Part shown: piece after piece, positions 4,755-53,110 of the stretch
Numbering within the stretch: the first letter of the stretch is position 1
How the letters are laid out: each line of letters starts with the position of its first letter
From: Fibrobacter sp.
Lineage (GTDB): Bacteria > Fibrobacterota > Fibrobacteria > Fibrobacterales > Fibrobacteraceae
Direction: 5' to 3'
NCBI GenBank assembly: GCA_017412605.1
Contig: JAFPWY010000003.1
Coordinates: 124,001-188,000 of the forward strand
Length of the DNA: 64,000 bases
Program-made: the position numbers and the translations under genes
The notes under the pieces: generated by a model
Databases searched by the model: none
The model's input: only the letters and a program-made list of their open reading frames with translations
What the model was told of the DNA's origin: nothing

Positions 4755-6584
4755 ATGAAAGAAAATTCGGGAAAAAAAGGAAAAGTATATCTAATTGGCG
4801 CCGGGCCGGGCGATCCGGGATTATTGACGTTGCGCGGAAAGTCCGTGCTCGAAAAGGCAGACGTAGTGGTTTATGACCGCCTTGTTTCGCCCGCCATTCT
4901 CGGGTTTTGCAATCCGAAGGCCAAGATGGTGGATGTGGGCAAGATGCCGACGCACCACAAGGTCAAACAGTCCGAAATTAACAAACTATTGGTGCAATTT
5001 GCTAGTGAAATGCCGAATGCGACCATTGCCCGCCTCAAGGGGGGCGACCCGTTCGTGTTCGGGCGTGGTGGCGAAGAAGCTTTGGAATTGCTTGCAGCTG
5101 GCGTAGAATTTGAGGTTGTTCCGGGTATTACCTCGGCGATTTCGGTTCCGGCTTATGCGGGCATTCCCGTGAGCCATCGTGGCATTGCGACCAGTTTCCA
5201 TATCATCACCGGCCATGAAAAGGCGGAATCTTCCTCCAATGTCATCCCCGCGCCCACTGATGTCATCCCCGCGCAGGCGGGGATCTCCTCTGCGCCGGTA
5301 GGTCTAGATTTTCCTGCTCTTGCGCATTGCCCCGGCACGCTCATCTTCTTGATGGGTATCGCCAACATGGATTTCATTGCCAAGCGCTTGATGGAATGTG
5401 GCAAGGACCCGAAAACTCCTCTTGCTTTTATCGAAAAAGGGACGACCCCGTACCAGCGCACCGTCATGGCGACGCTTGAAACGGCGGGGGAGACCATCGT
5501 CCGTGAAAATGTGACGGCCCCTGCAATAACGATTATGGGTGGCGTTGTGGAACTGGGCAAGACGCTTGCTTGGAAAAAGAATTTGCCGCTTTCGGGAAAA
5601 CGCCTTGTGGTAACTCGTGCTGCCAAGCAGGCTAGTGGGATTACTGCCCGCCTCACGGCTCTCGGCGCCGAAGTCATCGAAACCCCGATGATCGAAACCC
5701 GCACTTTGGAACGCCCTCTTGTCATGGCGCAAGCGCATGACAGCATCGGCTCGGCAATGCCTGTCTGTGAACAGCCTGTCACTGCACTCGCCTCGCATGT
5801 CATTGCGAGCCCCGAAGGGGCGCGGCAATCTAGCCCTGCCGACTTCAGTTCTCTCGCAAATTTCGACCTACTCGCTTTCACCAGCACAAATGGCGTGGAA
5901 AGCTTCTTCAAGCTATTGCTCGCCTCGGGCAACGACATCCGCATCCTTGCGGGCAAGAAAATTGCGAGCGTCGGGAAAATTACCGAAAAGAAGTTGCTCG
6001 AATACGGCATCCGCTGCGATTTCGTCCCCGAAGACCATACCGGCGAAGGCCTCGGAATGCTTCTTCGAAGCATTTTAGACGAAAGAACGCTCGTAAACTC
6101 GCTACAGACGAAAGACGAAAGAGGCTCAACAAATTCGCAGACTTTAGCAAGTTCCCTGAGCTTGTCGAAGGGAACTGAATTCACGAATTTGGATGAATCT
6201 CGCATCCTCCTACTGCAAGGCAACCTCGCCGACGACACTTTGCTCAAACTCCTCCCGCAGGCGACCCGTTGGGTGGTTTACGAGACGCTCCCCGTGGTGG
6301 AACTCCCTGAATGGAAGCGTGAAGCCGTTGCCAGCGCCGATGCCGTCGTGTTCGCCAGCACCAGCGCTGTTGATAATTTTGTCAAACTTCTATCTCAAAG
6401 CACCGTAGGTGCGACCTCGTGCCTCGAAGCGCCGCAGGCGCGACCCCGTACCTCGTTTTGCATCGGCCGCATGACGGAATCCGCAGCCCGCAAGCACGGC
6501 TTTGATACCGTCACTTCCGACGAGACGACGATGGATTCGCTCGTCAAGAAAATTGCGGAATACTATGCAGGGGAGGGCGCATAA
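4755..6584 (+). CDS. cobA-hemD: CobA-HemD fusion: uroporphyrinogen-III methyltransferase / synthase
   Basis: A 609-residue fusion. Residues 1-280 are the SAM-dependent uroporphyrinogen-III C-methyltransferase (SUMT), with [35 protein letters not shown] and [20 protein letters not shown]. Residues from about 285 are uroporphyrinogen-III synthase, with [29 protein letters not shown] and [11 protein letters not shown]. Together they close the tetrapyrrole ring and make precorrin-2. The protein exceeds the roughly 500 residues usual for such fusions because repeat DNA is inserted in frame near residues 162-178, 322-362, 440-478 and 547-568. It overlaps the next gene by one base (ATAATG). Confidence 0.93.
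5241..5288. repeat. In-frame palindromic repeat (GTCATCCCCGCG type) in cobA
   Basis: One partial copy (GTCATCCCCGCG at 5241) and one full copy with an 8-bp stem, ATCCCCGC-gcag-GCGGGGAT (5265-5284). It is translated as [10 protein letters not shown] within the methyltransferase domain, in a stretch that related enzymes do not need. This is a widespread dispersed repeat type in bacteria. Confidence 0.8.
5798..5832. repeat. In-frame ATTGC...GCAAT palindromic repeat in hemD
   Basis: TGTCATTGC and GCAATCTA flank GAGCCCC-gaa-GGGGCGCG. It is translated as [12 protein letters not shown]. The same family lies between genes at 20105-20138 and 40464-40499, in the other orientation. Confidence 0.8.
6151..6175. 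repeat. In-frame GTTCCCT...AGGGAAC palindromic repeat in hemD
   Basis: A 7-bp stem GTTCCCT/AGGGAAC encloses GAGCTTGTCGA. It is translated as SLSLSKGTE, the recognisable product of the common CCTGAGCTTGTCGAAGG-type dispersed repeat. Just upstream, GACGAAA is repeated in tandem. Confidence 0.75.
6394..6458. repeat. In-frame hairpin cassettes plus 7-mers in hemD
   Basis: Two cassettes, CACC-gta-GGTG and CGCC-gca-GGCG, each preceded by a 7-mer (CTCAAAG, CTCGAAG) and followed by CGAC and 7-mers (CTCGTGC, CCCGTAC, CTCGTTT). This is the same module as at 1926-2069 and 40517-40538, here translated without breaking the frame. Confidence 0.8.
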
Positions 6585-7505: not shown

Positions 7506-8474
7506 ATGATTATCCGTCCTCGTCGTTTACGCAAGAATGAAACCATCCGCAACATGGTTGCGGAAACCGCAGTCAACCCCGATTCGCTCGTCTACCCGAT
7601 GTTCGTGGTAGAAGGGGAGGGCGTTAAGGAAGAAATCCCTTCGATGCCCGGGCAGTTCCGTTTCTCTATCGATGAAATCTTGAAGGAACTCGAAAGCTGC
7701 GTTGCGCTGGAAATCAAGTCGATATTGCTTTTCGGCATCCCGCACCACAAGGACGAAATGGCGACTTGCGCCTATGATGACGATGGCATTGTGCAGCGTG
7801 CGGTGCGCTCCATCAAGGCGCATTTCCCCGATCTGTACGTGATTACGGACGTGTGCCTTTGCGAGTACATGAGTCACGGGCATTGTGGGATTATCAAGGA
7901 TGGCGACGTGGATAATGACCCGACGCTGGAACTCCTCGCGAAGACAGCGCTTTCTCATGCGGAGGCCGGAGCCGACATGGTTGCCCCTTCCGACATGATG
8001 GACGGCCGCGTGGGGGCCATCCGCAAATGTCTCGATGAACATGGGTTCACGAATACGCCTATCATGGCTTACAGTGCGAAGTTTGCGAGCGCCTATTACG
8101 GCCCGTTCCGCGATGCGGCCGATTCCGCCCCGCATTTCGGCAACCGCAAGAGCTACCAGATGGACGTGCGCAACGGCCGTGAGGCTCTGCGCGAAGTGGA
8201 ACTCGATATCGAGGAAGGGGCCGACATCGTGATGGTGAAGCCTGGCCTCGCTTTCCTTGATGTCTTGCGCCAGACAGCCGAAGTCAGCAACGTCCCGGTG
8301 GCAGTGTACAACGTGAGCGGCGAGTATTCCATGGTGAAGGCTGCGGCAAAGATGGGGTGGATTGACGAAAACGCCATCATCCGCGAAAATTTGCTAGCCT
8401 TCAAGCGCGCCGGAGCCGACATCATCATTACCTATCATGCAAAAGAAGCACTCGAGAAGGGCTTGGTAAAGTGA
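7506..8474 (+). CDS. hemB: Porphobilinogen synthase (delta-aminolevulinate dehydratase)
   Basis: A 322-residue HemB that condenses two 5-aminolevulinate molecules to porphobilinogen. Zinc-site cysteines C117, C119 and C127 lie in [14 protein letters not shown]. The two active-site lysines are in [18 protein letters not shown] and [14 protein letters not shown]. Length is normal, with no insertions, unlike the two genes upstream. It follows cbiX-sirC by four bases, so the three form an operon. The next enzyme, HemC, is not encoded in the window. Confidence 0.96.
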
Positions 8475-8622
8475 TTGTAATGCGCTGTTGATACTATGTA
8501 TTTACAGCGTATTTTTGTTAATTTGTTTTTTACGAACAAAAGAAATTTTTTATAATTTTATAATATATTATTGGTAAAGACAAAATAATAAATGCTGAAT
8601 TTATTCGAGTTTTTACTATATA

Positions 8623-9762
8623 ATGAACGTTGAATTAAGTATAACCGAACAGTGCAATCTCCGATGTAGTTATTGCTATTATAGGGATTCCCATGCAAAA
8701 CGTTGCTCCGTAATGAGCGATGAGGTCATGGAGGCGACCGTTCGGTTGGCGTTCAAAAAAATCCTAAAATCTGGCGACGATTTTCTCAATATTACGTTTT
8801 TTGGCGGTGAACCGCTTTTGCGGATGGATTTCATCAAGAAAACGGTGAAGTTTACAAAAGCGTTAGTAAAAGAGAACTCGGCAAAATTGGATAAATCGTT
8901 CGAACTTTTTTTCACGGTTGATACGAATGGAACGTTGCTGACGGACGATATTGTCCGTTATTTGAAGAAAGAAAAGTTTAGGGTGACTGTATCCCTGGAT
9001 GGTCCCGAGAAAAAGCATAACATTGCAAGGGTGACGGCGAACGGAAAGGGGAGCTTTAGGGCTATCAAGCCTTATATTCCGACTTTAGTGGAAATGGGGG
9101 CCGGTGTGGTAAGCGTGCTTACCCAACAACATGTAAAGGGCTTCGCAGATTCCATAAAATGGCTTTTCAAGCAAGGTTTCAAGTATGTGGGCGTGGCTCA
9201 GGACTTTAACGGCAAATGGACCGGAAAAGACTTTGACGACTTGATCGTTGAATATGAAAAGTTGGCTCGCTTCTGGTTCCGTTCCAAGAAACAGCACATG
9301 GACATAAGTTTGGGCCTGATTCAAAACAAGGTGGATATGTCGATTTGGGGAATGCGCCAGAAAGAAACGGGCTGCTTCATAAACTCCCAAACGCTAGTTG
9401 TTGCTGCGAATGGTAACACATTCCCTTGTTCGCGGTTTATCTCCAGCCAAAAGAATGCACCCTATATCACGGGAAATGTTCTCGATGAGCAGAGTGGTGT
9501 GTATAAAGGTATTTTCCCAAAAAAAATTAGTCGTTTTATCAACAGCGACAGGAAGGAGTGTAGAGATTGTGCGATACGGTATCGCTGTCTTGCGCATGAA
9601 TGTGGATGCACTTCTTTTTACTCGACCGGATCGCTGGATAAGATTTCGCCGGAAGTTTGCACGCACGAAAGGATCTTATGTGCCATCTGCGACGAATATG
9701 CCGCAAAGCTGATTCGTGATTTTTCGGCGCAAAAAAGTTTTCCAACCAACCCTAAACCCTAA
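8623..9762 (+). CDS. Radical SAM/SPASM protein, putative peptide maturase
   Basis: A 379-residue radical SAM enzyme. The SAM-cluster motif CNLRCSYC (C11, C15, C18) is at the N-terminus, with FFGGEP and VDTNGTLL as the SAM-binding strands. The C-terminus has a SPASM-type cysteine set (GCFINSQ, FPCSRF, ECRDCAIRYRCLAHECGC, VCTHERILC) for auxiliary 4Fe-4S clusters, as in anSME and RiPP maturases. A 101-residue gene follows 14 bases downstream and is a candidate substrate. The 148-base upstream region is strongly AT-rich and the ATG has no ribosome-binding site. Base composition is more AT-rich than the flanking hem genes, suggesting later insertion. Confidence 0.82.
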   Translation: MNVELSITEQCNLRCSYCYYRDSHAKRCSVMSDEVMEATVRLAFKKILKSGDDFLNITFFGGEPLLRMDFIKKTVKFTKALVKENSAKLDKSFELFFTVDTNGTLLTDDIVRYLKKEKFRVTVSLDGPEKKHNIARVTANGKGSFRAIKPYIPTLVEMGAGVVSVLTQQHVKGFADSIKWLFKQGFKYVGVAQDFNGKWTGKDFDDLIVEYEKLARFWFRSKKQHMDISLGLIQNKVDMSIWGMRQKETGCFINSQTLVVAANGNTFPCSRFISSQKNAPYITGNVLDEQSGVYKGIFPKKISRFINSDRKECRDCAIRYRCLAHECGCTSFYSTGSLDKISPEVCTHERILCAICDEYAAKLIRDFSAQKSFPTNPKP

Positions 9763-9776
9763 CCAAAGAGGATAAC

Positions 9777-10082
9777 ATGGCTACAACAACTGCAAAAAAA
9801 GAAACATTGACACTTGCGACTAAGCAGTCCAAAGAAATGAAAGCGGCTTTGAAAGAGTTCTTTCCCGCTGAAGCCGTCGAATATTTGAAGGAGACGAAGA
9901 AGAGAAGACCTCGTCGTCCTTTTATTGAAGGTATTCCGTACCCTGGTCCGATTTACAAATCTGCTGTTTTGTCGGATGCCGTAAAGCAAAAGCTTCTGAC
10001 TGAAAGCGTTCGTTTTGAAAGAGCTCAGGCGGAGTTTTTTGATTGCATCGATAATCTTTTGACGATTAGCAGCAAGCTCTAG
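9777..10082 (+). CDS. Small protein beside radical SAM gene, possible RiPP precursor
   Basis: A 101-residue protein I do not recognise. It has a helical, lysine/glutamate-rich N-terminal half, then a basic and proline/tyrosine-rich stretch (KKRRPRRPFIEGIPYPGPIY, about residues 42-61), then a helical tail with a single cysteine. A good ribosome-binding site (AGAGGA) precedes the ATG and a strong terminator follows, so it is the last gene of a two-gene unit with the radical SAM enzyme. It could be the substrate, or a partner protein. It is not cysteine-rich. Confidence 0.7.
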   Translation: MATTTAKKETLTLATKQSKEMKAALKEFFPAEAVEYLKETKKRRPRRPFIEGIPYPGPIYKSAVLSDAVKQKLLTESVRFERAQAEFFDCIDNLLTISSKL

Positions 10083-10114
10083 TCTGTTGAAGTAAAATCT
10101 TCCTTGATGACAGC

Positions 10115-10153
10115 AAGGTCTTCCTTACGGGGAAGACCTTTTTTTTATTTTTT
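10115..10153 (+). terminator. Rho-independent terminator of the radical SAM operon
   Basis: Perfect 10-bp stem AAGGTCTTCC/GGAAGACCTT with loop TTACGG, followed by a run of T. It separates the radical SAM pair from hemL, whose ATG follows a few bases later. Confidence 0.93.
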
Positions 10154-10158
10154 TCATC

Positions 10159-11445
10159 ATGAACCACTCTCTTAGTGAAAAACTTTTTGCAGAAGCCAAG
10201 AACTTGATGCCGGGCGGCGTGAACAGCCCGGTGCGTGCATTTGGAAACGTGGGGGCGACTCCTCCGTTCATCGCCCGAGCGAAGGGCAGCCACATCTACG
10301 ATGTGGACGGTAACGATTACATCGATTACGTGGGTAGCTGGGGCCCGATGCTTTTGGGACACGCCCACGATGCCGTTGTCAAGGCTGTGGCCGAGACGGC
10401 GCAGAACGGCCTTAGTTTCGGTGCCCCGTGCGGGCTCGAATCCAAGCTGGCGAAACTCGTGATGGAGTTGGTGCCGAGCGTGGAGATGATCCGCATGGTG
10501 AACAGCGGGACCGAGGCTACGATGAGCGCCATCCGTGCCGCTCGCGGTTTTACCGGCCGCGACAAGATTGTGAAGTTTGAGGGCTGCTACCACGGCCATA
10601 GCGACAGCCTGCTCATCAAGGCGGGTTCGGGCATGCTCACGACGGGCAAGCCGAGCAGCAAGGGCGTTCCGGCCGACCTCGCAAAGTACACGCTCACGCT
10701 CCAGTACAACGACGTGTCGGGCGTGAAGGAACTCTTTGACAAGATCGGCGACGAGATTGCGGGCGTTATCGTGGAACCGGTGGCCGGCAACATGGGTGTC
10801 GTTCCCGCGAAGCCCGAATTTTTGCAGACGCTTTCCGCAGAAACCAAGAAGCACGGCGCACTTTTGATTGTGGATGAGGTCATGACGGGTTTCCGTGTGG
10901 GTATCCACTGTGCGCAGGGCCTGTATGGCATCAAGCCGGACTTGACGACATTTGGAAAGATTATCGGCGGCGGTATGCCGGTGGGCGCTTACGGCGGTCG
11001 GCTGGACGTGATGCAGCAGATTGCACCGCTCGGCGGCATCTATCAGGCGGGAACGCTTTCGGGCAACCCGGTCGCGATGGCTGCTGGGTTAACCACGATG
11101 CAGGAACTTGTGGCTCATCCCGAGTATTACACACATGCCGAAGCGATGACAACTCGCTTGCTTGACGGCCTCAAGGATGCGGCTAAGTCTGCTGGAATCC
11201 CGCTGGCTGTGAACCAGGTGGGGGCGATGGGCTGCGTGTTCTTTACCGAGGGCCCGGTGGAATGCTTCGCTGACGTGCAGAAGTCCGACCTGGAACTGTT
11301 CCGCAAGTATTTCCTCGGCATGCTCGACGAGGGTATTTACCTTGCCCCGAGCCAGTTCGAGGCAATCTTCGTGAGTGCCATGCATACAGAAAGCGACATC
11401 GACCGTACCGTCGATGCCGCAAGGAAAGTTTTCAAGACGCTTTAA
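10159..11445 (+). CDS. hemL: Glutamate-1-semialdehyde 2,1-aminomutase
   Basis: A 428-residue PLP-dependent aminomutase making 5-aminolevulinate from glutamate-1-semialdehyde (C5 pathway). Typical segments are [54 protein letters not shown] and the PLP-lysine segment [19 protein letters not shown]. No repeat insertions. The upstream 76 bases are mostly the terminator of the preceding operon, with the T-run ending just before the ATG, so the hemL promoter must overlap it or transcription reads through. Confidence 0.97.
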
Positions 11446-45778: not shown

Positions 45779-48700
45779 ATGAATCGAATGAAGTCTATGG
45801 CCGCGTTGCTTGCCTCCGCTGGCGTCTTGGCATCTTTTGTTATTGCTCAAGATGGAAAAGGTGGCGCTGCTGCAGTTGAAAATAATGCTCCTTCCGTGAA
45901 CGGCATTCCTGGCGAATCCATTCAGGAGGGCGGAAAGTTTGCTACGATCAAGTTGGATAAATATGTATCTGACGACATGGACAAGCCCGAACAGATCAAG
46001 TGGGCTGTCTCTGGAAACAAGAAACTCAAGGTTTCTATTAAGGACAGAGTCGTAACAATCGAAACACCGGACAAGTACTGGAACGGCTCGGAAGACCTGA
46101 CTTTCGCCGCGACTGACACCAAGGGTGCGGTCGGCTCCGAAACGGTGAACTTCACTGTCGAGTCCGTGAACAATCCGCCTACGGTTTCGCAGATTGCAGA
46201 CCAGACCGTGGACGAAGGAAAGCAGTTCTCAAAGATTAACCTCGATAACTTTGTCGCCGACCCCGACCACCCGAAGGACCAGATTCTTTGGGAATTTGAC
46301 ATCCAACCGGTGGGCAAGGATCAAGCTGATGGAGACCTCAATGTCGAAATCGATCCGAAGCGTGTCGCCACGATTGTGATTCCCGACCCGCATTGGTATG
46401 GTACGGCAAAGATCAAGTTTACCGCGACTGACGGCGAATACGCAAGCGACTCCAAGACCGCTACGTTCACCGTGAAGCCGATTAACGACCCGCCCGTCTT
46501 GCAGAAGATTCCGAGCCAGACGATCGAAGAGAAAAACGAATTCGAATCTATCTCCCTGTCCGATTTCGTTAGCGACGTAGATGATGACGTCTCCAAGCTC
46601 AAGTGGTCTATCAGCGGCAACAAGGACCTCAAGTTCGACATTGACAAGTACGGTACCGCGAACATCAAGATTCCGAACGAATTCTGGAACGGCTCCGAAC
46701 AGATTACGTTCACCGTGACCGACCCTGCTGGTGCGTCTGCCAAGACGACGGCGACCTTCACGGTCAAGTCCGTGAACGACGCTCCCGAGTTCATCAAGGA
46801 CGTTCCCGACCAGACGATCGACGAAAAGCAGGACTTCAAGCCGGTTCAACTGGACCAGCTGGTCAAGGATCCGGACCATGCTTTCGAACAACTTAAATGG
46901 ACAATTTCTGGCAACAAGGACCTGAAGGTTGCCCTGAACGGCAAGACCGCTACTATCGGTGTTCCGAGCAAGCTCTGGAACGGCTCCGAGACGCTTAAGT
47001 TCAAGGTTTGCGACCCGGCCGGTGCCTGCGCTGAATCTGAAGCTCCGTTCACAGTGAACTCCGTGAACGACAAGCCGGAATTCGTGAAGGCCATCCCGAA
47101 CCAGAACATCGACGAAAAGAAGCAGTTTGCAAAAATCAAGCTTGACGAATACGTGAAGGATGCCGACCACAAGCATTCCGAACTCTCCTGGGATGCCGAC
47201 GTGAAGCACCAGGGCAAGATGCCGGAATCCGGCACGCTCAACGTGAGCATCGACGAAAGCCGCGTTGCTACCGTTGAAATTCCGGACACCTACTGGAATG
47301 GCGCTGCTGTTGTTATGTTCACCTGCACTGACCCGGAAGGCGCTGCTGTGAAGCAGGAAGTCACCTTCACGGTGAAGTCCATCAACGATATCCCGGTGTT
47401 CAAGAAGATTCCGGACCAGGCCATCGAAGAAAAGAGCGAATTCTCTTCTATTATTCTTGACGAATACGTGAACGATGCCGACCACGACCTCTCCAAGCTG
47501 AAGTTCGATGTCTCCGGCAACAAAGACATTAAGGTCAACGTGAACCAGAAGACCCGCGAAGTGACGTTCAAGACTCCGAGCGAACTCTGGAACGGCGCTG
47601 AAACGGTGACGATTACTGCAACCGACCCGGAAGGCGGCAAGGCTTCCTCTGCATTCAAGCTCTCCGTGAAGTCCATCAACGACCCGCCGGTCATGAAGGA
47701 TATTCCGGAACAGTCCATCAAGGAAAAGGGCCAGTTCAAGCCCGTCGAACTCGACAAGTATGTTGATGACCTCGACCACGGTAAGGACAAACTCAAGTGG
47801 ACGATTACTGGCCAGCGTGAACTGAAGGTTTCTATCGACGCCAACCGCATCATGAAGGTGACCCCGCCGAGCCCGCAGTGGAACGGCTCCGAAACGCTCG
47901 TTATCAAGGTGACCGACCCGGATGGTGCAACGGACGAACGCTCTGTGGCCTTCTCCGTTGAATCCGTGAACGACGTTCCGGAATTCCTGAAGCAGGTGGC
48001 CGCACAGACCATCAAGGAAAAGGAACAGTTCCAGGTCATCAAGCTTGGTGAAATGGTGAAGGACGCCGACAACAAGCTGAGCGACCTCAACTTCGCCGTC
48101 AGCGTGCATCCGGCTCCGAGCGGAAAGAACAAGGGTGGCGACCTCACTGTCGAAATCGACGCTCAGCATGTTGCCAAGATTGTTATTCCGAACAAGCTCT
48201 GGAATGGTGCCAACGAAATTTCGTTCACCGTGACCGACCCGGAAGGCGCCAAGGCTACGTCCAAGGCCCTGTTCACCGTGACATCCGTGAACGATGTGCC
48301 GGTTCTTAAGAAGATTCCGGACCAGATGATTAGTGAAAAGATGCAGTTCACCGATATCAAGCTCGCTGAACTCGTCTCCGATCCCGACCACAGCATCTCC
48401 CAGTTGAAGTGGACGATTTCTGGTAACAAGGACTTGAAGGTCGACATCAACAAGGATGGTGTTGCCAGCGTCAAGATTCCGAGCCAGATGTGGAACGGTT
48501 CCGAAAAGATTTCCTTCGTCGTGACCGACCCGGAAGGCGCTTCTGCCAAGTCTGAAGCCGTGTTCACCGTGAAGTCCATCAACGACCCGCCGATCATGAA
48601 GGACATCCCGAGCCAGAAGATCAAGGAAAAGGAACAGTTCAAGACGATCGCCCTGGACGACTTCGTCAGCGACCTCGACCACGACAAGGCTCAGCTCAAG

Positions 48701-51700
48701 TGGACCTTCAGCGGCCAGAAGGACCTGAAGATTTCCATGGACGCAAAGCACGTTGTTACGATTGCTACTCCGAACAGGTTCTGGCACGGCACCGAGACGG
48801 TGAAGTTCACCGTGACCGACCCGGAAGGTGCTACCGACAGCCGCTCTGTGACCTTCACTGCTGAATCCGTGAACGACCTCCCGGTCTTCACCAAGCCCAT
48901 CAAGGACCAGAGCATTCAGGAAAAGCGCGAATTTGCTATCATCAACCTGGGCGACATCGTGACTGACCCGGATCACAAGCCGGAACAGCTTTCCTGGACG
49001 TTCAAGGTTGACGGTGCCAAGGGTGCCCCGAAGGGTTACACTCCGAAGCTCACCGTCAAGGTGGACGACAAGCGCATGGCCCGCATTGTTATTCCGGACA
49101 AGTACTGGAACGGCTCTGAACAGATTACGTTCACCGTTGTTGACCCGGATGGCGGCAAGGCCAGCTGCGTTGCCACGTTCACTGTGACATCCGTGAACGA
49201 TGCTCCGACCATCGGCAAGATCAACGACCAGGCTGTCGAAGAAAAGCAGGAATTTGCTCCGATCGACCTTGCTGCAATCATCAAGGATCCGGATCACTCC
49301 TACGACAAGTTGAAGATTGAAGTGACTGGCAACAAGGAACTGAAGGTCGACATCAGCAAGGAAGGCAAGGCGACTGTCAAGGCTCCGAACAAGATGTGGA
49401 ACGGTTCCGAGAAGCTCACGTTCACCGTGACCGACCCGGAAGGCGCCAAGGCCTCTACGTTTGCAACCTTCTCCGTGAAGTCCATCAACGACCCGCCGGT
49501 CATGAAGGAAATTGCTAGCCAGACCATCAAGGAAAAGGGCCAGTTCAAGCCCATCGAGCTCGACAACTTTGTCGACGACCTCGATCACCCGAAGAACAAG
49601 CTCAAGTGGAAGATCGAAGGTGCCAAGGAACTCAAGGTTGCCATGGATGCTAGCCACAAGGTGACTGTGACCCAGCCGAACCAGTTCTGGCACGGTTCCG
49701 AAAAGATCAAGTTCACCGTGACTGACCCGGAAGGCGCTTCCGACAGCAAGACTGTTACCTTCACGGTTGAATCTGTGAACGACGCTCCTGTGTTCGTGAA
49801 GGAACTTAAGGGCCAGTCCATCGACGAAAAGAGGCAGTTCCAGACCATCCGCCTGGATGACCTCATCAATGATCCGGACCATGCCAAGAACGATCTCAAG
49901 TGGTACTTCGACGTGAAGTCCGTCAAGGCTGCTCCTGCCGCTCCGGCCAAGAAGGGTGGCAAGAACGAACCGGCCGCTGCTCCGGCTACGACCAACGGAC
50001 TCTCTGTGAAGGTTGACGCCCAGCATGTCGCTACCATCGTCATCCCGAACAAGTATTGGAATGGCGCCGCGGACATCACGTTCACGGCCAAGGACCCGGA
50101 AGGCGCTGCAGTTTCCAAGACGGCTCGCTTCGAAGTCCGCTCCATCAACGACCCGCCGAAGATTTCTGATAAGGCTCCGAAGGGTGAAACCATCCGTGAA
50201 AACGGCCGCTTCACGACTATCGACCTTTCCAACCTCGCTACCGACCCGGATCACCCGGCTTCGAGCCTCAAGTGGACCTTCACCGGCAACAAGTTCCTGA
50301 AGGTGAACCACCGCAAGGACAACACGGTTGAAGTGGCCCTCCCGGATCCGCAGTGGAACGGCAAGGAAATGATCACCTTCACCGTGACCGACCCGGAAGG
50401 CGCTTCTGCTAACCACAAGATGACCTTCGAAGTCACGCGCGTCAACGACGCCCCGAACTTCGTCAAGAGAATTCCGGACCAGAAGATCAAGGAAGGCAAC
50501 AAGTTCAAGCCTATCCAGCTCGACGAATTCGTGAAGGACCCGGATAACAAGCCGAACGAACTCAAGTGGAAGGTTTCTGGCTCCCAGAAGCTCAAGGCTG
50601 AAATTTCCGGCGGCCGCGTGCTCACGGTCTCCGCTCCGGATCCGCACTTCTGGTGCGCTCCTGAAATGCTCGTGATCGAAGCTACCGACCCGGAAGGTGC
50701 TTCTACCTCCGCTACGGTGACCTTCGAAATCACCTCCGTGAACGATGCTCCGGTGCTCAAGGACATCCCGAACCAGAAGATCAGGGAGAAGGGCGAATTC
50801 AAGGAAATCGACCTGAACAAGTTTGTCCACGACCCGGATCACCAGAACCACGAACTCAAGTGGAGCGTGAAGGTGACCAAGGTCGGCGCTCCCGAGAAGA
50901 AGCCTGCTCCGAAGAAGCCCGCTCCGAAGAAGCCGGCCAAGAAGGGTGCTAAGGCTGACGAAAAGACTGAAGCTAAGGAAGAAGCAGCTCCGGAACCGAA
51001 GCATGACGACCTCGAAGTCGAAATCGACAGCAGGAACATCGCTCATGTCAAGCTCCCGTCCAAGTTCTGGAACGGCGAACGCAACGTCATCTTCACGGTC
51101 GAAGACCCTGAAGGTGCCAAGGCTAGCAAGACTGTCAACTTCCTCGTGGAATCTGTGAACGACGCTCCTGAAATGAAGGTCATCAAGACTCAGACCATCA
51201 ACGAGAAGGAAAAGTTCAAGCCGATCGACCTGAACGGCATCGCCAGCGACCCGGATCATCCGGTCAAGAGCCTCAAGTTCGAAGTCAACGCTACTCGCCA
51301 GCTCAAGGCTTCTATCGACAAGCTGAACCAGTTGTGGGTGGCTACTCCGGACAAGTTCTGGAGCGGTTCCGAAAAGATTACGCTTACTGTCCGTGACCCG
51401 GAAGGCGCCAAGGCGACCCAGCAGATTCTCTTCGAAGTCCTGCCGGTCAACGACCCGCCGATCGTGAAGTCGATTCCTGGCCAGAGAGTCAAGGAAAAGG
51501 AAAAGTTCGAACCGATCGACCTTTCCAAGGCTGCTACCGACCCGGACAACAAGCCGAACGAACTCAAGTGGAGTGTTACCGGCAACAAGGATTTGAAGGT
51601 GGACATCAGGGGTACCCGCGCTATGGTGCTGACCCCGACCCCGAACTGGAACGGCAAGGAAACCCTGACCTTCACGGTTAAGGATCCGTCCGGTGCTAGC

Positions 51701-53110
51701 GCATCTACCAATGCGACCTTCGAAGTGATTGCCGTGAACGATCCTCCGATGATGAAGCCGATCCAGCCGTTCATTATCGAAGAAAAGAAGACCTTCGCTC
51801 CGGTCGACTTCTCGAAGCTCGTTACCGATCCGGATAACGCTCCTGAAGAACTGACCTGGTCTCTCGATGATGCAAGGCCGATGCCGATCAAGACGAAGAA
51901 GGGCATTACCATGAAGATGGGCCGTCCCTCTGTGAAGCACGAAATCAACTTCAACATCGACGAAAAGGGTACTCTCACTGCTGAAATCCCGAACAAGTAC
52001 TGGAACGGTACCGAAGTCGTCACGGTCAACGTGTTCGACCCGGCCGGCGCCAAGGCCTCCATCGATGTCAAGTTCGTTGTCAAGCCGGTGAACGATCCTC
52101 CGACCGTCAAGGAAATTCCTGGCCAGGAAACGCTCGAAGGCAAGGGCTTCAAGCCCATCAAGCTCGACGAGTTCGTGACCGACCCGGATAACAAGGTCCA
52201 TGAAATTCGCTGGAAGGTCTCCGGTGCCAAGAACCTCGACGTGATGATTTCTGGCGGCCGCGAAGCCGTAATCAGGCCGAAGAAGCAGGATTGGTTCGGC
52301 GAAGAAACGCTCGTGTTCACTGCCACCGACCCGGCTGGCGCAAGCGACAAGACCGTTGCCAAGTTCGTCGTCAAGCACGTGAACTCCGCTCCTGTCATGC
52401 GCGACATTCCTGACTTCACCATCAAGGAAGACGACCGTCAGGGCGTTATCGCGGTCATCAAGCTCGACCAGTATGCCCGCGACAAGGACAACCGCTTCGA
52501 AGAACTCAAGTGGACCTTCACCGGCAACAAGTACCTGCAGGTGAAGCACGACAAGTTCAAGAAGACTGTGACCATTTCTCAGCCGCACGAGAACTGGAAT
52601 GGCAAGCCGGAACGCATCACCTTCACAGTGACCGACCCGGAAGGCGCCAAGGCTAGCAGGGCTGCTCTGTTTACGGTGATTGCCGTGAACGACCCGCCGG
52701 TTGCTGTCCCGCACACCTACATGACCCAGGAAGGCGAAGAACTCTCTGTTCCGGCTTCTGAAGGCCTGATGTCCGGTGTCAACGATCCGGATGGCGAAAA
52801 GCCGGTTGCCGTGGCTGTCGTCCAGAAGCCGCGCAACGGTAAGATCTCTCTGAACGAGAAGGATGGTTCCTTCACCTACATGCCGAATAAGGGCTTCAGC
52901 GGCCTTGACGAATTCACGTTCAAGGTTCGTGACCCGGGTGGTGCGTTCTCCAAGATTGAAACTGCCGAAGTCAACGTCAGCTTCAAGATGAAGGACCTCC
53001 GCGGCGGCGAAAAGAAGAAGGAAGCTCCGAAGGCTGAAGAACCGGCCAAGGACAAGGACGACGAAAACGCCGACCAGCCCAAGAAGAAAAAGAGAAAGAA
53101 AAGATCCTAA
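45779..53110 (+). CDS. Giant secreted protein of 23 tandem Ig/cadherin-like domains
   Basis: A 2443-residue protein with a signal peptide (MNRMKSMAALLASAGVLASF), then 23 domains of about 100 residues. Each starts VND/IND-xP-P and has IxEKxxF, a VxDPDH-type calcium-like acidic segment, LKWxxSGNKDLKV, WNGSE and FTVTDPEGA. Domains 2, 5, 8, 11, 14, 17 and 20 carry an extra loop, giving seven three-domain super-repeats. Domain 23 differs and is closest to standard cadherin-like repeats (NGKISLNEKDGSFTYMPNKG). The end is a lysine-rich tail ending KKKKRKKRS. Likely a long cell-surface filament or envelope-spanning adhesin. No sorting domain is recognised. Confidence 0.92.
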   Translation: MNRMKSMAALLASAGVLASFVIAQDGKGGAAAVENNAPSVNGIPGESIQEGGKFATIKLDKYVSDDMDKPEQIKWAVSGNKKLKVSIKDRVVTIETPDKYWNGSEDLTFAATDTKGAVGSETVNFTVESVNNPPTVSQIADQTVDEGKQFSKINLDNFVADPDHPKDQILWEFDIQPVGKDQADGDLNVEIDPKRVATIVIPDPHWYGTAKIKFTATDGEYASDSKTATFTVKPINDPPVLQKIPSQTIEEKNEFESISLSDFVSDVDDDVSKLKWSISGNKDLKFDIDKYGTANIKIPNEFWNGSEQITFTVTDPAGASAKTTATFTVKSVNDAPEFIKDVPDQTIDEKQDFKPVQLDQLVKDPDHAFEQLKWTISGNKDLKVALNGKTATIGVPSKLWNGSETLKFKVCDPAGACAESEAPFTVNSVNDKPEFVKAIPNQNIDEKKQFAKIKLDEYVKDADHKHSELSWDADVKHQGKMPESGTLNVSIDESRVATVEIPDTYWNGAAVVMFTCTDPEGAAVKQEVTFTVKSINDIPVFKKIPDQAIEEKSEFSSIILDEYVNDADHDLSKLKFDVSGNKDIKVNVNQKTREVTFKTPSELWNGAETVTITATDPEGGKASSAFKLSVKSINDPPVMKDIPEQSIKEKGQFKPVELDKYVDDLDHGKDKLKWTITGQRELKVSIDANRIMKVTPPSPQWNGSETLVIKVTDPDGATDERSVAFSVESVNDVPEFLKQVAAQTIKEKEQFQVIKLGEMVKDADNKLSDLNFAVSVHPAPSGKNKGGDLTVEIDAQHVAKIVIPNKLWNGANEISFTVTDPEGAKATSKALFTVTSVNDVPVLKKIPDQMISEKMQFTDIKLAELVSDPDHSISQLKWTISGNKDLKVDINKDGVASVKIPSQMWNGSEKISFVVTDPEGASAKSEAVFTVKSINDPPIMKDIPSQKIKEKEQFKTIALDDFVSDLDHDKAQLKWTFSGQKDLKISMDAKHVVTIATPNRFWHGTETVKFTVTDPEGATDSRSVTFTAESVNDLPVFTKPIKDQSIQEKREFAIINLGDIVTDPDHKPEQLSWTFKVDGAKGAPKGYTPKLTVKVDDKRMARIVIPDKYWNGSEQITFTVVDPDGGKASCVATFTVTSVNDAPTIGKINDQAVEEKQEFAPIDLAAIIKDPDHSYDKLKIEVTGNKELKVDISKEGKATVKAPNKMWNGSEKLTFTVTDPEGAKASTFATFSVKSINDPPVMKEIASQTIKEKGQFKPIELDNFVDDLDHPKNKLKWKIEGAKELKVAMDASHKVTVTQPNQFWHGSEKIKFTVTDPEGASDSKTVTFTVESVNDAPVFVKELKGQSIDEKRQFQTIRLDDLINDPDHAKNDLKWYFDVKSVKAAPAAPAKKGGKNEPAAAPATTNGLSVKVDAQHVATIVIPNKYWNGAADITFTAKDPEGAAVSKTARFEVRSINDPPKISDKAPKGETIRENGRFTTIDLSNLATDPDHPASSLKWTFTGNKFLKVNHRKDNTVEVALPDPQWNGKEMITFTVTDPEGASANHKMTFEVTRVNDAPNFVKRIPDQKIKEGNKFKPIQLDEFVKDPDNKPNELKWKVSGSQKLKAEISGGRVLTVSAPDPHFWCAPEMLVIEATDPEGASTSATVTFEITSVNDAPVLKDIPNQKIREKGEFKEIDLNKFVHDPDHQNHELKWSVKVTKVGAPEKKPAPKKPAPKKPAKKGAKADEKTEAKEEAAPEPKHDDLEVEIDSRNIAHVKLPSKFWNGERNVIFTVEDPEGAKASKTVNFLVESVNDAPEMKVIKTQTINEKEKFKPIDLNGIASDPDHPVKSLKFEVNATRQLKASIDKLNQLWVATPDKFWSGSEKITLTVRDPEGAKATQQILFEVLPVNDPPIVKSIPGQRVKEKEKFEPIDLSKAATDPDNKPNELKWSVTGNKDLKVDIRGTRAMVLTPTPNWNGKETLTFTVKDPSGASASTNATFEVIAVNDPPMMKPIQPFIIEEKKTFAPVDFSKLVTDPDNAPEELTWSLDDARPMPIKTKKGITMKMGRPSVKHEINFNIDEKGTLTAEIPNKYWNGTEVVTVNVFDPAGAKASIDVKFVVKPVNDPPTVKEIPGQETLEGKGFKPIKLDEFVTDPDNKVHEIRWKVSGAKNLDVMISGGREAVIRPKKQDWFGEETLVFTATDPAGASDKTVAKFVVKHVNSAPVMRDIPDFTIKEDDRQGVIAVIKLDQYARDKDNRFEELKWTFTGNKYLQVKHDKFKKTVTISQPHENWNGKPERITFTVTDPEGAKASRAALFTVIAVNDPPVAVPHTYMTQEGEELSVPASEGLMSGVNDPDGEKPVAVAVVQKPRNGKISLNEKDGSFTYMPNKGFSGLDEFTFKVRDPGGAFSKIETAEVNVSFKMKDLRGGEKKKEAPKAEEPAKDKDDENADQPKKKKRKKRS
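46166..52684 (+). repeat. Seven three-domain super-repeats (about 900-1000 bp each)
   Basis: Super-repeats begin near 46166, 47062, 47965, 48870, 49778, 50740 and 51735. In each, the first domain has the extra loop and the second and third do not. Loops in the fifth and sixth units are long and Ala/Lys/Pro-rich. Confidence 0.85.

Follow-up and report, generated by a model that had tools for sequence, protein, structure and literature searches.

The stretch of DNA analysed here (the window; 64,000 nucleotides, positions 124001-188000 of contig 1 in a Fibrobacter assembly of 15 contigs and 3.53 Mb) contains at positions 8623-10082 a two-gene unit, in which an open reading frame of 379 amino acids is followed after 14 nt by one of 101 amino acids (Table 1). 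The unit lies between genes that we take to be hemB (7506-8474) and hemL (10159-11445), names based on resemblance and on an earlier reading of the DNA (the initial annotation). Its GC content is 0.35-0.47 versus 0.53-0.62 in the flanks (about 0.56), and both open reading frames are present as described, so that the initial annotation was right in calling it an AT-rich two-gene unit between hemB and hemL. A terminator of its own had also been claimed and was found, namely an 11-bp stem followed by a T-tract just 3' of the small gene; it is the longer of two terminator-like sites in the scan, a count that is by itself not significant (2.0 expected from shuffles). Promoter-like sites were not above chance (5 versus 3.0), and direct or inverted repeats of at least 14 nt were absent from 8480-10170. 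Elsewhere in the window a 609-aa open reading frame (4755-6584), presumably a uroporphyrinogen methyltransferase/synthase fusion, carries a PAQAGIS-like insert that is possibly a repeat element read in frame; the largest open reading frame of the window (2443 aa) is at 45779-53110.

Table 1. Features of the two-gene unit and its 3' end, in positions of the window
Feature	Position	Strand	Evidence
Radical SAM/SPASM enzyme, 379 aa	8623..9762	+	ORF; NCBIfam/Pfam; solved relatives; best named family PapB-like maturases, below cut-off
CNLRCSYC radical SAM cluster motif, codons 11-18	8653..8676	+	three Cys invariant in 62/62 aligned relatives
SPASM cysteine region, C-terminal, residues 251-356, nine invariant Cys	9373..9690	+	alignment; Pfam SPASM 251-316
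AGAGGA, Shine-Dalgarno-like, 5' of small gene	9767..9772	+	direct reading; Shine-Dalgarno-like word at 34/34 partner ORFs
Basic partner protein, 101 aa, candidate substrate	9777..10082	+	ORF; alignment to four diverged partners (I-x-G-I, C-terminal helix)
FIEGIPYPG, codons 49-57, I-x-G-I-P-like motif, candidate modification site	9921..9947	+	unsupervised motif search, 120.6 versus shuffle maximum 89.1
Intrinsic terminator stem-loop, 11-bp stem, then T-tract	10115..10140	+	terminator scan

The first gene encodes a radical SAM enzyme with a SPASM domain (Pfam Radical_SAM, E = 4.4e-18, 66.4 bits, cut-off 29.5; SPASM, E = 4.2e-05, 24.2 bits, cut-off 21.5). In an alignment of 62 sequences, comprising the window enzyme, the 33 others of clades A-C (see below), 8 of 22 from clade D, 14 of 48 from clade E and clades F and G, the cysteines of the CxxxCxxC motif (residues 11, 15 and 18) and nine further ones (C251, C269, C313, C316, C322, C327, C329, C346 and C356) are invariant. 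Pfam and the alignment thus agree with the initial annotation, which had read a CxxxCxxC motif and a full SPASM cysteine set from the one sequence. The nine further cysteines should suffice for two auxiliary clusters, as is general among SPASM enzymes. Because the CxxxCxxC motif begins at residue 11, a recognition domain would not fit at the N-terminus of the enzyme.

In NCBIfam the window enzyme stays below every curated cut-off. Its best model is PapB (NF047865; E = 3.2e-59, 200.8 bits versus a cut-off of 340, a comparison made for the window enzyme alone, the other 61 members being judged by counts and best E-values); PapB matches 62 of 62 scanned members, with the best E-value of all models (1.4e-69). 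Two other names were considered and rejected, the anaerobic sulfatase maturase (TIGR03942; 113.6 bits, cut-off 349.45), with which no firm grouping was found, and the maturase of the FibroRumin system (TIGR04136; 58.2 bits, cut-off 400); matches to PADLOC viperin models are generic radical SAM cross-matches. The solved relatives by sequence are CteB (PDB 5wgg/5why; 4.4e-27 with 5wgg), anSMEcpe (5.9e-18) and TigE (8vpo; 4.1e-12). Overall the solved relatives comprise CteB, anSME, ChlB and TigE, none of which fixes the chemistry. The top fold match is anSMEcpe (TM 0.68); in the AlphaFold model of the enzyme the SPASM region is poor. Nothing close was found among PHROGs, viral contigs (12 loci at 23-38 % identity) or plasmids (best match 29 %), and there is therefore no sign of carriage by phages or plasmids.

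A search for the enzyme in 150 relatives (E ≤ 1e-25) gave matches in 63 genomes with 1-4 copies each, four in the window's own genome. All 63 genomes belong to the window's family, the Fibrobacteraceae, 60 to the same genus and 3 to other genera. The 129 tblastn hits were reduced to 113 by dropping identical copies and those spanning less than 250 query residues, and to 111 distinct enzymes by removing two truncated duplicates (L027 and L028). From the tree of these 111, in which several inner branches are open, clades were picked by eye: A (14, including the window enzyme), B (14), C (6), D (22), E (48), F (4) and G (3). The window enzyme with its partner is apparently one copy of an undescribed Fibrobacter family.

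Past the stop codon of all 34 enzymes of clades A-C, at a distance of 11-40 nt, there is a small open reading frame (69-183 aa) preceded by a Shine-Dalgarno-like word. The pairing that the initial annotation had proposed for the window unit is thus strict in these clades, with support from the family far above that of the window alone, and we regard the link between enzyme and partner as well supported. The partners are basic (median net charge +14.5 in clade A, +16.5 in B and +7.5 in C) and have at most one cysteine each, 11 of the 14 in clade A having none. Homologues of one clade A partner, sought in 130 genomes, numbered 6 and those of one clade B partner 5; every one of them is beside an enzyme. 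The window unit is built as the other clade A units are, with the enzyme followed by a small Lys-rich protein that carries an I-x-G-I-P-like motif. The most conserved parts of clade A partners are this central motif and the C-terminal helix. Beyond Lys-richness no leader is conserved in clades A and B, the N-terminus being variable; clade C partners have a common N-terminus. A clade B unit (L042, from position 2648 onwards) has a tandem of two small partners that differ from each other and each carry Gly-containing motifs. Two clade A units from different genomes (L065 and L060) share an open reading frame (MDMGIVSVRMDKETK...) approximately 480-560 nt upstream of the enzyme, which resembles a RelB/DinJ-type antitoxin.

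The 101-aa protein of the window is basic and, in agreement with its earlier description as not cysteine-rich, contains a single cysteine (C90), which is followed by I-D-N-L and hence is not part of a CX3D motif. NCBIfam, Pfam, PHROGs and PADLOC contain no family for it, and among 100 relatives its only match at E ≤ 0.001 is itself; a pattern scan of contigs yielded 174 pattern matches, none of which was confirmed. That the protein is an orphan was nevertheless rejected, since the enzyme-centred loci show partners, which are too diverged for direct search. With the partner at locus L058 there is weak similarity (E = 0.009), and when it is aligned with four diverged partners, I-x-G-I does not vary and the helices at the C-terminus coincide. 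The predicted structure is of low confidence overall (pLDDT 65), with a confident helix only at residues 67-100; this model suggests a basic, helical protein whose motif lies midway along the chain, in a loop that is predicted to precede the helix.

The motif was recovered by an unsupervised search of width 9, in which non-redundant subsets of the partners (11 of 14 in clade A, 8 of 14 in B, 5 of 6 in C) and their shuffles were run with equal starts. For clade A the log-likelihood ratio was 120.6 (30 shuffles: mean 82.2, maximum 89.1), for clade B 93.3 (shuffle maximum 76.8) and for clade C 60.4 (56.0); since clade A partners are partly homologous, common ancestry explains part of the signal. 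The site chosen in the window protein was PFIEGIPYP or FIEGIPYPG, depending on the run; in some clade A rows (e.g., L060) other words were chosen, and in clade B mixed words. The initial annotation had singled out a basic Pro/Tyr-rich segment, RRPRRPFIEGIPYPGPIY (residues 43-60), as the possible modified core. Of this proposal the region around FIEGIPYPG has stood, being found again by the motif search and containing the conserved I-x-G-I; the basic part of the segment is not conserved. In clade A partners the pattern I.G[ILMVDT]P was counted 6 times over 1,532 aa; clade B partners (1,878 aa) lack it, and 238 neighbouring open reading frames, unlikely reading frames included, contain it once in a total of 95,831 aa. 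Of two further patterns, likewise picked after inspection, G[ILMVD]P was not enriched in clade C (1 versus 1.30 expected) and [AST]G[ILMVDE][PIVL] occurred 35 times in 9 non-redundant proteins of clade D versus 3.5 expected from shuffles; the clade D proteins, lipoproteins described below, are rich in similar words, e.g., PLAGIP and PLPGDP.

The partners evolve faster than the enzymes. Among 17 related pairs, 16 show a higher Ka for the partner than for the enzyme (1.3-6.8 fold), and in the remaining pair the two printed values do not differ; identity in a closely related pair (L071/L061) amounts to 96 % between the enzymes and 80 % between the partners. For the partners Ka stays lower than Ks in 16 of the 17 pairs, Ks not being calculable in the other, and they therefore look like real, fast-evolving proteins.

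The initial annotation had called the unit an insertion in the hem cluster, and the site is indeed a variable one. Among 30 hemB loci the gap between hemB and hemL holds the enzyme in 2, measures at most 32 nt in 7 and contains a membrane-type open reading frame of approximately 270 aa in 5; in 4 hemL was not reached. In the other 12 (L158, L159, L160, L163, L164, L166, L168, L172, L177, L181, L184 and L186) there is an unrelated, variable lipoprotein of 106-134 aa (MKKLM..AAL..TACGDDSS), which marks the gap as a hotspot for small variable genes. In clade A, ten of 14 copies adjoin hemB and/or hemL or stand in tandem there. The median GC content of the enzyme gene versus its flanks is 0.435/0.555 in clade A, 0.541/0.550 in clade D and 0.486/0.502 in clade E; the contrast in clade A fits a lateral arrival of clade A units.

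In clades D-G the enzymes have a different neighbour, a homologous Ser-rich open reading frame upstream of the enzyme, at 75 of 77 loci (no lipoprotein was found upstream at L138 and L113, and the one at L126 is listed with a wrong start). A cysteine is at the lipobox position in 74 of the 75 listed proteins, 44 of which fit a stricter lipobox pattern. In clade E 45 of 47 lipoproteins fit SM[VIA][STI]T[FYS]E near the C-terminus, the other two being close, and at 28 of the 47 loci the lipoprotein gene overlaps the enzyme start by 4 nt. At 14 clade E loci there is an apparent long gap before the enzyme, which in those read holds another lipoprotein; in the window's genome (contig 9) and in two other genomes four lipoproteins precede the enzyme in tandem. 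In the array of the window's genome (L200, 1477-5446; contig 9, approximately 186976-190936) the four Ser-rich lipoproteins directly 5' of the related enzyme differ in their middles and have the same kind of SM[VI]xTFExxD end. A search of 60 genomes with the first 44 residues of a clade E lipoprotein gave 31 matches in 17 genomes, all 31 within 4 kb of an enzyme. The initial annotation had named wide occurrence of the partner without the enzyme as evidence against its reading; this was not found, the sampled homologues (6/6, 5/5 and 31/31) being beside an enzyme only. These other members of the family probably modify the Ser-rich lipoproteins encoded directly upstream. Because the conserved end in clade E is SM[VI]xTFExxD, a single site for all clades is not established.

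We propose that the window encodes a leaderless two-gene protein-modification unit, a reading that we consider fairly probable. The enzyme would abstract a hydrogen from the co-encoded basic partner, the putative substrate, and thereby oxidatively modify the loop I50-E-G-I53-P, so that the I-x-G-I-P motif would be the site of modification. Recognition would proceed through the partner itself and the motif, with neither a leader peptide nor a recognition domain, and the product would probably be a modified cytoplasmic protein rather than a released peptide; the unit would be one of several types within the Fibrobacteraceae enzyme family. Modification of the whole protein is favoured by the lack of an N-terminal domain, of a leader conserved in clades A and B and, within 3 kb, of a common protease or exporter, and by the position of the motif in a mid-protein loop.

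The initial annotation had envisaged a ribosomal peptide with a modified core. The enzyme-partner pairing and the site suit that proposal; a classical leader and a released core have become less likely, since the enzyme is too short at its N-terminus for a recognition domain, no common protease or exporter was found within 3 kb, the partner is helical in a low-confidence model and the sister clades have lipoproteins. If the partner were nevertheless the precursor of a classical RiPP, its Lys-rich N-terminus would be the leader and the I-x-G-I-P core would be cross-linked (C-C, C-O or C-S) and cut out by a protease encoded at a distance. Most of the named families nearest to the enzyme are RiPP maturases, and short loci of two or three genes with a radical SAM enzyme and a precursor are described as common in RiPPs (PMC9062424). 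Against this stand the absence of a leader conserved across the partners and the location of the motif, which is not C-terminal. Within 3 kb of the clade A loci, some with short flanks and with neighbours not annotated singly, no common protease or exporter was found, nor any common cluster of open reading frames beyond the hem region and the enzymes. Moreover, sister enzymes pair with full-length lipoproteins. Few partners contain cysteine, for which reason a family-wide Cys-based cross-link was dropped, and for clade A, whose partners almost always lack cysteine, a thioether is improbable. We regard the classical RiPP as an unlikely reading, less likely than modification of the protein.

Alternatively, the small protein could be a PqqD-like accessory or chaperone that brings a distant substrate to the enzyme. 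Small proteins beside SPASM enzymes have been suggested to be PqqD-like helpers (PMC8939145), and modification of the small protein is something that we infer here. A helper is expected to change no faster than its enzyme, however, which is the opposite of what 16 of the 17 pairs show, and arrays in which up to four diverged lipoproteins stand in tandem are more readily understood as substrates than as helpers. We therefore think it improbable that the partner has this function.

Two further explanations are very improbable. An enzyme resembling anaerobic sulfatase maturases and acting on Ser or Cys of other proteins, with the small gene unrelated, would fit the top structural match (anSMEcpe), but not the score far below the TIGR03942 cut-off, the best E-value and the general match of PapB, nor the partner gene beside all 34 copies. 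That the 101-aa open reading frame is not a gene would explain why it has no database family and no homologue in the 100 relatives, but not why it shares its position and Shine-Dalgarno-like site with 33 other units and has a terminator behind it, why it is weakly similar to diverged partners, or why related pairs are under purifying selection.

The unit proposed here can be compared with several known systems. Anaerobic sulfatase maturases, the top fold match, act like the proposed unit on a whole protein without a leader; the window enzyme scores far below their cut-off and its partner is not a sulfatase. CteB, the best solved relative by sequence (over residues 5-354), acts on a Cys-rich peptide and has approximately 96 more N-terminal residues ahead of the match. 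TigE, related by sequence and fold, presumably modifies an Ile in a short motif; it is longer (472 residues in the chain) and distant, with 18 % identity. PapB, the maturase of the ranthipeptide PapA, is likewise a radical SAM/SPASM enzyme with a small co-encoded partner, and is described to link Cys with Asp or Glu within CX3D motifs with the help of a leader (PMC9413430), whereas the window enzyme lacks the space for a recognition domain, remains below the PapB cut-off and belongs to a clade in which most partners have no Cys.

TvgB forms cyclopropylglycine on Val of TVGG repeats and is active on synthetic four-repeat peptides (PMC9062424). The tvg cluster consists of five genes that include peptidase/transporters. 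To judge from the description of the motif, TvgB resembles the window enzyme in that an aliphatic residue near Gly in a short motif would be changed, here at a fixed distance from Gly; it differs in the motif itself, TVGG versus I-x-G-I-P, and in the size of the cluster. By analogy only with TvgB, which acts on a Val next to Gly, the residue changed in the window protein would be aliphatic, and most likely an Ile of the motif.

Much new peptide chemistry comes from radical SAM enzymes, which are a major source of it, and a leader is needed by most of those characterised; systems of a radical SAM enzyme and a lipoprotein exist in other phyla. No description of this Fibrobacter enzyme-partner family was found in searches of the open-access literature. 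A table in a 2014 survey of RiPPs in anaerobes has none for Fibrobacteres (PMC4289311), and in a study that reports pH-dependent radical SAM genes for acid-tolerant F. succinogenes S85 the relevant passages name no such system (PMC5442110).

Tentatively, and with considerably less confidence than for the window unit, we suggest a genus-wide leaderless family that would mark aliphatic residues of short Gly motifs in surface lipoproteins as well as in basic proteins of the cytoplasm; with its fast-evolving substrate arrays it would serve a diversifying marking of proteins, both at the surface and inside the cell, rather than the synthesis of peptide antibiotics. A single enzyme lineage in a genus of cellulose degraders is associated with two unrelated kinds of candidate substrates, several per genome. 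With partners that evolve faster than the enzyme and with two kinds of putative substrates, the substrate motif would be directly testable, and the family would offer a natural substrate library for one enzyme scaffold. Judged from the sequences, it may represent a new kind of bacterial protein modification and, in Fibrobacter, possibly an unrecognised modification of surface lipoproteins.
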